Positions 16,636 through 21,259 of a DNA stretch of 64,000 bases are shown one piece after another (positions within the stretch are counted from its first letter, which is position 1; each line of letters begins with the position of its first letter). This stretch comes from Methanolinea sp. (GTDB taxonomy: Archaea > Halobacteriota > Methanomicrobia > Methanomicrobiales > Methanospirillaceae): the NCBI GenBank assembly GCA_024518585.1, contig JANIHI010000004.1, forward strand, positions 1 through 64,000. Reading direction: 5' to 3'. The notes beneath the pieces are model-generated. The model did no database searches and was not told where the DNA came from. It worked only from the letters and a program-made list of their open reading frames with translations. A program made the translations under genes and the position numbers.

Positions 16636-19098
16636 ATGACACAAGGGATTGATAAAAAGACGGCTGAACTCAAGATAGCGGGAATGAGATGTGCCACGTG
16701 CGCAGTAAACCTCGAAAAGGCTTTAAAGGACGAGGGACATGCCGACTCGGCCACTGTCAACCTTGCCTCTGAGACCGCCCACGTTGACTACAATCCATCA
16801 GCAACGAGCCTCACAGACCTCGAGGCCGCTGTCAGGAAAGCGGGGTACGATGTTGTCTATGACCAGGTCACAATAAGAGTCGGGGGAATGGTCTGTGCAA
16901 CCTGCGTCGAGACGATCGAGGCTGCCCTGAAGGCACTTCCCGGTGTGGTAAGTGCAACGGTCAACCTCTCGACAGAGAAGGCCTCTGTGGTCTACAACTC
17001 CTCTCTTTCGACCCTGGACGAGATGAAGAAGGCCATCGAGGACGCAGGCTACCAGTATCTGGGGCTTGCTGACCAGGTGACAACAAGTGCCGAGGAGGAT
17101 GCCCGTCGGCGGGACCTCCAGGACAAGGCCCGGCGATTCCTGGTTGGCTTTGGTGTCAGTATCCCGGAATTCATCCTGATGGTGTCACAACCTCCCCTCT
17201 CCCCGCACACCCTCTCGCTCCTCATGCTGGTACTTACCACCCCTGCGTTCGCCTACGTTGCCTATCCCATCTACAGGGGGGCTGTATCAGCCCTGCGGAA
17301 CCGCACCCTGAACATGGACGTGATGTATGCCATGGGAACCGGTGTTGCATACGGCGCAAGTGTGGTATCCACGGCGGGAATTGGCCTTTCGCACGATTTC
17401 ATGCTGTACGACACGGCATTAATGCTCGCCTCGTTCCTCATGCTGGGGCGGTACCTCGAGGCAAGGGCCAAGGGGAGAACGACCGATGCAATAAAGGCAC
17501 TCATCGGGCTCCGCCCGCGAACAGCCACACTCATCACCGATGGGGAAGAGAGGGAGGTCCCAATCGAGGATGTCAGGGTGGGGGATCTCATACGCGTCAC
17601 GCCCGGCGAAAAAGTCCCGGTTGACGGCACCGTGATCGCGGGCGAGAGCTCCGTCGATGAATCCATGGTCACGGGGGAGCCCGTGCCGGTGTTCAAGACC
17701 CCCGGATCAACCGTCGTCGGGGGGACGATTAATACCAACGGTGTCCTCACGATCAAGGCACAGAAGGTTGGGAAAGAGACGGTGCTGGCGCGGATCATTG
17801 CACTCGTTGAAGACGCCCAGGCATCCCGGCCACCCGTCCAGAGGGTTGCCGACGGCGTCGTGGCATACTTCATCCCGGTCATCCTGGCAATTTCCACCCT
17901 TACATTTCTTGTCTGGTCCTTCGCCCTCCACGCGCCCCTCACATTCTCCCTGACTGCATTCGTCTCTGTCCTTGTCGTGGCATGCCCATGCGCGCTGGGA
18001 CTTGCCACCCCGACGGCGGTAACGGTAGGAATCGGGAGGGGCGCTGAACTCGGGGTCCTCATCAGGAACGGTGAGGCGCTCGAGGTTGCAGACCGGGTCA
18101 ATTCAGTGGTTCTTGACAAGACCGGAACACTCACGCAGGGAAAACCTGCATTAACAGATATCGTTCCCTTGAACACAGGAAGAACAACCCTCCTCTCGCT
18201 TGCCGCAGCGGTTGAGAAAAATTCGAAACATCCCCTGGCAAGGGCAATCGTTGACGCAGCAGCAGCCGAGGGGGTGGCCCCCCTGGATGGGGAGGAGTTT
18301 TATTCCCACGGTGGAAAGGGCGTCTCGGCCCGGGTTCTCGGGGAGCAGGTGCTGATTGGAAATGCGGGTTTCCTGGAAGAAAACGGGATAACCCTGTCGC
18401 CCGATGCAGGCGAGATCATCGCGAGACTTGGCAGAGAGAAAAAGACGGTCGTTGCGATCGCGACCGGCGGGACCATTGCCGGGGTCATTGGCATCGCGGA
18501 TCCCGTGAGGGAGACATCTGCGGAGGCTGTTGAAGAATTCAGGAAGATGGGTCTTTCGGTCAGCATGGTCACCGGGGACACCATCCGGACGGCAGAGGCG
18601 ATTGCAGAGAAGCTGAAAATCGAAAATGTCATTGCCGGGGTACTTCCCGAAGAAAAGGCCCGCGAAGTCAAAAAGATGCAGGAATCGGGGAGGGTGGTGG
18701 CGTTCGTGGGTGATGGCGTGAACGATGCGCCGGCACTCGCACAGGCGGACGTCGGGATCGCGATTGGAGGTGGGACCGACGTAGCCATAGAGAGCGGGGA
18801 CATCGTCCTCATCAGGGACGACCTCCTCCATGCGGTCGCAGCACTCCAGCTCTCCCGCAAGGTCATGGCCCGGATACGCGGCAACCTCTTTTGGGCATTC
18901 GCCTATAACGTTGCCCTCATCCCTCTTGCAGCAGGAGTCTTTTACCCTCTCACGGGGTACATGCTCCAACCGGAGCTCGCGGCCCTCGCGATGGCCGCAA
19001 GTTCTGTCACCGTCGTCTCCCTCTCCCTTACCCTCAAAAGGTATATACCTCCCGTTCTCCGAGATCGTTTACCAGGGGAAAAAACCCATGGCCATTGA
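16636..19098 (+). CDS. copA: Copper-transporting P1B-type ATPase
   Basis: Exports Cu+ from the cytoplasm using ATP. The 820 residues carry two N-terminal heavy-metal-associated domains with CxxC (C19/C22 and C87/C90), eight predicted membrane helices, the membrane CPC motif (C450-P-C452) that defines Cu+/Ag+ specificity, the phosphorylated Asp494 in DKTGTLTQG, the TGE loop (MVTGEPVPV), the HP motif (SKHPLA) and [10 protein letters not shown]. Start ATG 16636 follows GGGGGAGGG. Its 3' end overlaps the start of a tiny YHS gene by 11 nt, so the two are cotranslated. Confidence 0.95.
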
Positions 19099-19231: not shown

Positions 19232-19328
19232 GTGGGGGACGGGACCTGCCAATCGTGCGTCAACCCCAAAACCAGCATTTATGGGAGGGCCATACATAAC
19301 CCATCCCGTTAGAAGGAGTGCAAAAAAG

Positions 19329-20456
19329 ATGGAGGACCCGGAGGAGAGTGTCATGTCCCGGGAAGATGGGGATGGGGGGTTCATGACGTGGCAGGAGGAA
19401 GACCTTGTCGCCCGTCTGCCAGGGGTCATGCGGGCGAGAAAGGCTGCCGGTCTCGATGGTCTTGTCGGAGATCTCCAGGCAATCGTCATCAACACGGAAA
19501 GGGAAAAGCTCGAGGCTGCAGTCGCCGAACTCCTTGCATTCACGGGGCTAGCGATCGACGAGCACTTCTCCACAACCCGGACCCAGGCATATACCCTCCG
19601 GATACCGGGCTCCCCTGCTGTCATTGTCAAGAGCCGCCTTGCCGGAAAAAATCCTTTCCTTCCTTTTAACCAGGCCGAGAAGGCAAGGAAACTTCCCAAT
19701 ACCCGCCTCGAGACATTCATCTTTGGATGCCGTGATATCGATGCCTATTGTGAAATACAGAGGGAAAGGGGTGTTCGTTTCCAGACAGACGAGGTTCTCA
19801 CGGGTCCTGATTTCCGCTTCATCCAGACGGTCCCCTCTCCCTATACAGGCAATTCCCTTGGTTTCATCGAATGGACGGGCCAGGGGCGGTCATTTGCACC
19901 ATCAGGTGCAGAGAGACGCCCCATCACTCTTGAAAAACCAGGGCATTCCTACCTTGCGAACATAGGGAAGCTGGACCATACCGCAACACGGGTAAGGGCA
20001 AAAGAGCGGAACGCAGCAATTCTAGAGTTCCTCTCCCTGACCAATTATCACTTTGACTTTGCCGTCTTTGTAAAATCTCTCAACTCCATCACGAGCGTCG
20101 CCCGCCTGACCGATGATGCTTTTGCTATGGTCTTTACCTCCGGCATCGCACCTTACCGCGAGGGAGAGGACGCGGGGCCAACCGAGAACTTCATCCACTT
20201 TTACGGGACACGCGTCCACCACATGGCATTTTCAACAGACGACATTGATGCAGTCTTTGCAGAGCTGGTAACCCATGGCATGGAATTCCTCGTGAAACTC
20301 GTCGGGTCCCGCGAGGAAGGACTCAAACAGACGTTCTCCATGCCGTTCCCCCACACGATGATAGTCAACGAGTACATCCACAGGTACGAGGGGTTCGACG
20401 GGTTCTTTACCCGGAGTAATGTCGAGGAACTGACGCGGGCGACGGGGAGGCAGTAG
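19329..20456 (+). CDS. HPPD-like VOC-superfamily protein with intact iron triad
   Basis: A 375-residue protein with two vicinal-oxygen-chelate modules. The C-terminal half resembles 4-hydroxyphenylpyruvate dioxygenase: LDHTATRV (His217), RVHHMAFSTDDID (His298, aligning with the QHVAF histidine of HPPD) and MIVNEYIHRYEGFDGF (Glu348, aligning with the FEFIQR glutamate), followed by RSNVEEL as in HPPD GNFxxLF. These would be the 2-His-1-carboxylate iron ligands. HPPD needs O2, so the reaction in a methanogen is unclear; it may be an isomerase, a lyase or an O2-responsive enzyme. ATG 19329 has GAAGGAG at 19312-19318. Monocistronic; no tyrosine-catabolism genes nearby. Confidence 0.65.
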   Translation: MEDPEESVMSREDGDGGFMTWQEEDLVARLPGVMRARKAAGLDGLVGDLQAIVINTEREKLEAAVAELLAFTGLAIDEHFSTTRTQAYTLRIPGSPAVIVKSRLAGKNPFLPFNQAEKARKLPNTRLETFIFGCRDIDAYCEIQRERGVRFQTDEVLTGPDFRFIQTVPSPYTGNSLGFIEWTGQGRSFAPSGAERRPITLEKPGHSYLANIGKLDHTATRVRAKERNAAILEFLSLTNYHFDFAVFVKSLNSITSVARLTDDAFAMVFTSGIAPYREGEDAGPTENFIHFYGTRVHHMAFSTDDIDAVFAELVTHGMEFLVKLVGSREEGLKQTFSMPFPHTMIVNEYIHRYEGFDGFFTRSNVEELTRATGRQ

Positions 20457-20518
20457 GGAGGATTCACGATGGATTTCTGTTCTCCAGAAAAGGGCCCGAA
20501 GGTGACACGACGGTGACC

Positions 20519-21259
20519 ATGAAGTACTCCTGGCAGATTAAACTCGCAATTTTCCTCGTTGCCTTTTCATTCTCGGTCTATCTCCTCAAGTTCCTCATCC
20601 TCGGGGATCCGGAAAACACGTACTTCTACGTCTTCAATGCCCTTGGTTTTCTTCCCATCAATGTGCTCCTTGTCACTCTCGTGTTAAATGAGCTCCTCAG
20701 CACGAGGGCACGCAGAGAACGCCTCGAGAAATTGAACATGGTCATCGGGACATTCTTTTCTGAAATGGGTACCGATCTCCTGCACACGATAACCCGGAAA
20801 GACCCTGATATCGCCCGTATTGCCGACACGCTGGCGGTCAGGGAAGATTGGAGTGACGAAGATTTTGCAAAGACAAAGAAAGTCTTTTCATCATACCCGT
20901 TTCGAGTGCTTCCCGAAAGGCAGGACCTTGAATTGATGCGGACATTCCTTAAAGAGAAGCGGAATTTCCTCCTTCGCCTCCTGGAAAATCCCATGCTCCT
21001 CGAGAACCAGGCTTTCACCGAGCTCCTCCGGGCTGTGACGCACCTCGGCGAAGAACTCGAGAGGAGGGGAGATCTCCTTTCCATTCCGGATAGCGACCTC
21101 GCCCATCTCCAGAAGGACATTGAACGTGTCTATCGCCTCCTCTGCCTCGAATGGCTGGCATACATGCACCACCTGAAGCGCCATTATCCCTACCTCTTCT
21201 CGCTCGCGATGAGGACGAATCCCTTTGACCCGAGTGCCCGGGTGGTAATCGGGCAATAA
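20519..21259 (+). CDS. Membrane-anchored protein of unknown function
   Basis: About 246 residues. Two membrane helices at the N-terminus (IKLAIFLVAFSFSVYLLKF and a second around GFLPINVLLVTLVLNELL) are followed by a charged, mainly helical cytoplasmic domain of about 185 residues with no recognised motif. ATG 20519 has GGTGA at 20501-20505; an in-frame GTG at 20513 is an equal alternative. It begins about 60 nt after the HPPD-like gene, so they could be cotranscribed. I do not recognise the family; similar proteins appear to be conserved in Methanomicrobiales, but this is recollection, not a search. Confidence 0.65.
   Translation: MKYSWQIKLAIFLVAFSFSVYLLKFLILGDPENTYFYVFNALGFLPINVLLVTLVLNELLSTRARRERLEKLNMVIGTFFSEMGTDLLHTITRKDPDIARIADTLAVREDWSDEDFAKTKKVFSSYPFRVLPERQDLELMRTFLKEKRNFLLRLLENPMLLENQAFTELLRAVTHLGEELERRGDLLSIPDSDLAHLQKDIERVYRLLCLEWLAYMHHLKRHYPYLFSLAMRTNPFDPSARVVIGQ

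Follow-up and report, generated by a model that had tools for sequence, protein, structure and literature searches.

An HPPD-like VOC protein with an invariant putative metal triad in methanogens and other, mainly anaerobic, hosts

The stretch of 64,000 nucleotides from Methanolinea sp. analysed here (the window) encodes a protein of 375 amino acids belonging to a coherent family without a name that is separate from 4-hydroxyphenylpyruvate dioxygenase (HPPD, EC 1.13.11.27). As judged by sequence comparison, the family retains the metal site of HPPD and part of its ligand pocket, and the network required for HPPD turnover is gone. HPPD needs O2 and a keto acid, and methanogens are strict anaerobes. 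The original prediction had pointed to an HPPD-like homologue with a full iron triad in a methanogen, and family-wide invariance, fold and profile alignment all agree with it. From sequence and model, the three triad residues are inferred to bind a metal, and the reaction is probably new. A literature search found no description of the family.

Gene, fold and profile evidence

The open reading frame and the residues His217, His298 and Glu348 named in the original prediction were found at the positions given there (Table 1). The gene occurs once in the Methanolinea genome. An alternative in-frame ATG at 19281 would yield a protein of 391 aa and, since conservation begins only at about residues 17-26, either start is possible.

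Table 1. Coordinates, in the window, of the HPPD-like gene and of its domains and residues (AtHPPD, Arabidopsis HPPD)
Feature	Position	Strand	Basis
HPPD-like two-domain VOC protein, 375 aa plus stop	19329..20456	+	ORF, homologues, fold
N-terminal VOC-like domain, about residues 46-182, without metal triad	19464..19874	+	Model secondary structure, whole-length Foldseek match
C-terminal VOC domain, about residues 212-352, carrying the predicted metal site	19962..20384	+	Model, Foldseek, hhalign
His217, predicted first metal ligand (AtHPPD His226)	19977..19979	+	Invariant 67/67, hhalign
Ser253 (AtHPPD Ser267)	20085..20087	+	Invariant 67/67, profile mapping, PMC6750108
His297, at the place of AtHPPD catalytic Gln307	20217..20219	+	Invariant 67/67, profile mapping
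His298, predicted second metal ligand (AtHPPD His308)	20220..20222	+	Invariant 67/67, hhalign
Gln334 (AtHPPD Gln379)	20328..20330	+	Invariant 67/67, profile mapping
Glu348, predicted third metal ligand (AtHPPD Glu394)	20370..20372	+	Invariant 67/67, hhalign
C-terminal helix with Asn364 (AtHPPD Asn423); invariant last residue Gln375	20412..20453	+	Model helix 362-372

An AlphaFold2 model built from the family alignment reached a pLDDT of 90 and a pTM of 0.90. When this predicted model was compared with the PDB by Foldseek, the best 50 matches listed were all HPPD or hydroxymandelate synthase (HMS, EC 1.13.11.46) and covered almost the full chain length, with a best E of 2.9e-20 and TM values of about 0.6-0.73, the highest TM among the matches listed being that of the HMS structure 2r5v (0.68-0.73). 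The model, Foldseek and Pfam together place the protein in the VOC superfamily, in which paired beta-alpha-beta-beta-beta modules surround a metal site, and the predicted architecture is the two-domain VOC fold of HPPD along the whole chain. His217, His298 and Glu348 fall within or at the margins of model strands 212-221, 298-303 and 346-352, which are the places of the HPPD ligands, so that at the level of matching strands the co-location check proposed with the original prediction did not speak against it. Its remark that the N-terminal module lacks similarly clear motifs was fair: in the model this module adopts a VOC-type fold, and it contains a few invariant residues (G41, L49, R126, E128, Q144 and F151) but no metal triad.

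In agreement with the fold, a whole-chain profile-profile alignment by hhalign against seven HPPD-type sequences gave E values of 7e-13 (global) and 1.3e-9 (local). The P. fluorescens and Arabidopsis references (the latter for its C-terminal part) match the PDB except for two or three terminal letters each; a human HPPD sequence served as a further reference. A plain sequence search against the PDB found marginal similarity, whereas the family profile returned HPPDs as top matches (E 3e-4). Identity to solved HPPDs is about 16%. HMS, an O2-dependent enzyme of the HPPD sequence family, shares the fold, but its sequence similarity does not rise above background (E about 0.1).

The best NCBIfam match of the protein is the HPPD model TIGR01263, with a score of 25.2 bits where the cut-off is 277, and the Salidesulfovibrio homologue reaches 34.9 bits, likewise below the cut-off. 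In Pfam there are only short glyoxalase-type matches, among which Glyoxalase and Glyoxalase_3 exceed their cut-offs; one bacterial/MAG homologue (L018) has no Pfam match at E 0.01. An automatic 'dioxygenase' annotation should thus be read with caution, as Pfam covers only a short stretch of the Methanolinea protein.

Predicted metal site and ligand pocket

All 67 full-length homologues carry H217, H298 and E348, which is therefore not chance. The original prediction had matched the motifs around these residues to the HPPD iron ligands, and hhalign indeed pairs them with the Fe(II) facial triad His226/His308/Glu394 of AtHPPD. It had also compared the endings of the two proteins; the GF...N...L segment does align with the C-terminal helix of HPPD. 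Further residues invariant in the 67 members are N252, S253, G283-P284-T285-E286, H297, Q334, F336, F360, N364 and Q375. Relative to AtHPPD, the retained positions include, besides H217, S253, H298, Q334, E348 and N364 (Table 1), F336 (F381) and F360 (F419), so that the Glu394-Gln379-Asn423 network and the stacking Phe381 have invariant counterparts (E348, Q334, N364 and F336).

In contrast, the network that forms the active state in substrate-bound AtHPPD, Ser267-Asn282-Gln307-Gln293 (PMC6750108), is represented by its serine alone (S253). Asn282 is replaced by G272 or A274, Gln293 by P284 or G283, Gln307 by H297 and Phe424 by V365; placing Asn282 and Gln293 requires small gaps, and neither of the alternative placements considered yields Asn or Gln. 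In AtHPPD, loss of these side chains lowers catalytic efficiency about 160-fold (N282A), 99-fold (Q307A) and 3722-fold (Q293A), while Asn423 binds the substrate phenol OH and Phe381 packs onto the substrate ring (PMC6750108). As the turnover-critical residues are replaced in the family, ordinary HPPD chemistry is unlikely. Also missing are an insert of about 30 residues ahead of Q334 and everything beyond the C-terminal helix.

The C-terminus (20441-20456 of the window and its counterparts in the homologues) is unusually fixed: 64 of the 67 members terminate exactly at the invariant Gln, approximately where the C-terminal tail of HPPD starts. Five bacterial/MAG homologues (L013, L015, L016, L017 and L018) carry an additional N-terminal CxxC...CxxC module that is zinc-ribbon- or rubredoxin-like. 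A few gene copies are broken by single in-frame stops (L017, at 1640-1642; L092, around 6140; and L093), which suggests occasional decay or assembly error. The in-frame TGA/TAG codons led us to consider the use of selenocysteine or pyrrolysine; they were judged to be damage because their positions differ, they occur in single genomes and one falls at a glycine position.

Distribution and genomic neighbourhood

Methanomicrobiales and Desulfovibrionales, together with a small number of further and mostly anaerobic lineages, contribute the 67 full-length members. Scanning species genomes yielded 19 relatives with 47-87% identity. Their archaeal hosts are Methanolinea, other Methanoregulaceae and a Thermoplasmatales MAG; the remaining hosts include Salidesulfovibrio brasiliensis, a second member of the Desulfovibrionaceae, a Bacillota MAG, Candidatus Aegiribacteria and Candidatus Tenebribacter. 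Whole-genome searches detected the family in 43 of 232 Methanomicrobiales genomes, among them five in which it is represented solely by a distant subfamily and two with nothing but short fragments, and in 33 of 199 genomes of the order of Salidesulfovibrio. Carriers were few in samples of four phyla (295, 247, 199 and 149 genomes), in which numerous matches at about E 1e-6 were short VOC matches at the 'HHxA' region and were not counted as members. No member was found in the plasmids and viral contigs searched. Every named host of the relatives is a methanogen, a member of the Desulfovibrionaceae or a MAG, and those in culture are anaerobes; the family is so far mainly one of anaerobes, a restriction that rests on a few named hosts.

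In a quick tree, whose deepest branches are long and poorly resolved, the 28 Methanomicrobiales sequences group together (SH-aLRT 88) among bacterial lines and HPPD falls far outside. The phylogeny proposed as a check on the original prediction therefore sets the family apart from HPPD, with the triad retained in every full-length member. High identity across domains together with patchy presence suggests horizontal spread, for which the tree falls short of proof.

The gene lies in an island that, in Methanolinea and one related genus, comprises a CopA-type ATPase, a YHS protein, the HPPD-like gene, a 248-aa membrane protein, ferritin, a DUF362 ferredoxin-like protein and a glutamate-synthase-like protein. 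At 16636-19098 of the window stands the CopA-type ATPase, a heavy-metal pump of the P-type that has two HMA domains and is followed by the YHS metal-binding protein; the membrane protein, which has no Pfam or NCBIfam match, lies at 20513-21259. The CopA-YHS island is conserved in several Methanomicrobiales genera. In sister methanogen genomes that carry it, the membrane-protein gene directly follows YHS (or CopA), which makes the HPPD-like gene an accessory unit of one gene at this place, either acquired or lost. As the ferritin/metal-pump island also exists without it, these neighbours are no evidence for O2 protection. A homologue of the membrane protein (37% identity) also adjoins the HPPD-like gene in the Thermoplasmatales MAG (L016), and the membrane protein could be a real partner. 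A divergent subfamily (L032-L036), which retains the triad and shows about 30-37% identity where it matches, stands directly behind DUF362 in five genomes from a different Methanomicrobiales family, usually close to CopA-YHS.

Elsewhere the neighbours, named from their sequences and not by profile matches, are priA or NAD-glutamate dehydrogenase in Desulfovibrionales, a tRNA pseudouridine synthase and bioB in the Bacillota MAG, and a flavoprotein, a TMEM175-like protein and ruvB in other methanogens. Such lineage-variable, unrelated contexts make gene context uninformative on function, and neither a substrate nor a conserved gene partner was found among the contexts compared. An operon-based assignment was rejected, as neighbours vary by lineage, the Methanolinea island also exists in genomes that lack the gene, and DUF362 is present almost throughout the order (185 of 232 genomes). 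A link to mercury methylation, considered because of the phyletic pattern, was likewise dismissed: the Methanolinea genome lacks hgcA, and the presence of hgcA and that of the gene are uncoupled.

Possible reactions

That the protein is a bona fide HPPD converting 4-hydroxyphenylpyruvate to homogentisate is very improbable. Fold and ligands are the same and TIGR01263 is the best NCBIfam match, but the score lies far below the cut-off, which none of the 232 Methanomicrobiales genomes exceeds with any protein, and the catalytic Gln/Asn network is lost. Moreover, homogentisate dioxygenase (PF04209) was absent from ten genomes, nine with the family (that of Methanolinea included) and one with the distant subfamily only, whereas a Caulobacter control was positive. 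The tyrosine-to-homogentisate pathway was thus not found in the host or in the nine other genomes; we rejected homogentisate/tyrosine catabolism on these grounds, and the tyrosine-like quinone chemistry entertained in the original prediction finds no support. Its two other suggestions, a different VOC reaction and a role in O2 protection, both stay plausible.

Our preferred reading, held tentatively, is that of a divalent-metal VOC enzyme with a 2-oxo-acid-type ligand, O2-independent chemistry being somewhat favoured. As a VOC protein of the HPPD/HMS branch that founded a separate family mainly in anaerobes, it would bind a divalent metal, probably Fe(II), and the metal would coordinate an oxygen ligand in bidentate fashion, with a 2-oxo acid or an enediol as the likeliest candidate; the retained stacking Phe and phenol-anchoring Asn suggest that this ligand may be aromatic. 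With less assurance, we infer an O2-free reaction (tautomerisation, isomerisation, lyase or similar), for which the invariant His297, beside a metal ligand, is a candidate acid-base residue. The leaning towards O2-independent chemistry comes from the concentration of the family in anaerobes and from the missing HPPD turnover network. It is also favoured by the VHH motif, which the family has in common with methylmalonyl-CoA epimerase, a metal-dependent VOC enzyme that works without O2. This likeness is confined to a VHHxAF motif around the second His, shared with single-domain VOC proteins too, within weak local similarity (TIGR03081, 19 bits against a cut-off of 114.95); both the epimerase and the single-domain proteins have another ligand arrangement and are short single-unit proteins. 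The retained oxygenase-type ligands argue against O2-independent chemistry, as a 2-His-1-Glu site with equivalents of Gln379 and Asn423 is typical of O2-activating relatives. We know only of O2-dependent enzymes in the HPPD/HMS branch and, to our knowledge, every characterised two-domain HPPD-type enzyme uses O2. The more specific proposal of an HPPD-fold metalloenzyme that has abandoned O2 and uses its 2-His-1-Glu site for an O2-independent 2-oxo-acid reaction, which would be an undescribed class, is possible, and we advance it with a little more reserve.

A less probable reading, to be taken seriously nonetheless, is an O2-dependent 2-oxo-acid oxygenase that would carry out an HPPD/HMS-like oxidative decarboxylation of another substrate at traces of O2, in scavenging, detoxification or repair. 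All members have the full O2-activating ligand set and equivalents of Gln379, Asn423, Ser267 and Phe381, Desulfovibrionales are a major host group, and the Methanolinea island includes ferritin, although sister genomes have that island without the gene and no link to O2 is apparent in the bacterial contexts (priA, glutamate dehydrogenase). Nearly all microbes are reported to have some O2-using enzymes (PMC11494890), but the equivalents of Asn282, Gln293 and Gln307, critical to HPPD turnover, are lost (PMC6750108). A non-catalytic role, as a sensor or regulator that binds a metal or ligand and descends from an HPPD-like enzyme, is unlikely: the zinc-ribbon-like module of five members, the solitary gene with neighbours that change by lineage and the fixed C-terminus would suit such a role, but the ribbon is absent from most members, no DNA-binding or signalling domain was found, and the invariant triad and several pocket residues point to chemistry beyond structure. 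Keeping the iron site in a mainly anaerobic family would mean either that an oxygenase scaffold can be converted to O2-free chemistry or that strict anaerobes maintain a dedicated 2-oxo-acid oxygenase for exposure to O2.

QuiC has a C-terminal HPPD-like module with a VHH motif, but it is fused to a TIM-barrel 3-dehydroshikimate dehydratase and scores only 15 bits here. Two single-domain VOC proteins, WP_102300553.1 and WP_024319131.1, which adjoin NRPS genes in Vibrio europaeus and Rhizobium sp. T136 (L140, 2420-2962, and L141, 2414-2959), share 26-29% identity with the C-terminal domain and, like the family, lack the HPPD insert; their triad positions read IDH, QHVA or AHVA, and IEL, and they have an LKQAF or LTQAF motif. 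They differ in having one domain of about 181 aa, a biosynthetic-cluster context and aerobic hosts.
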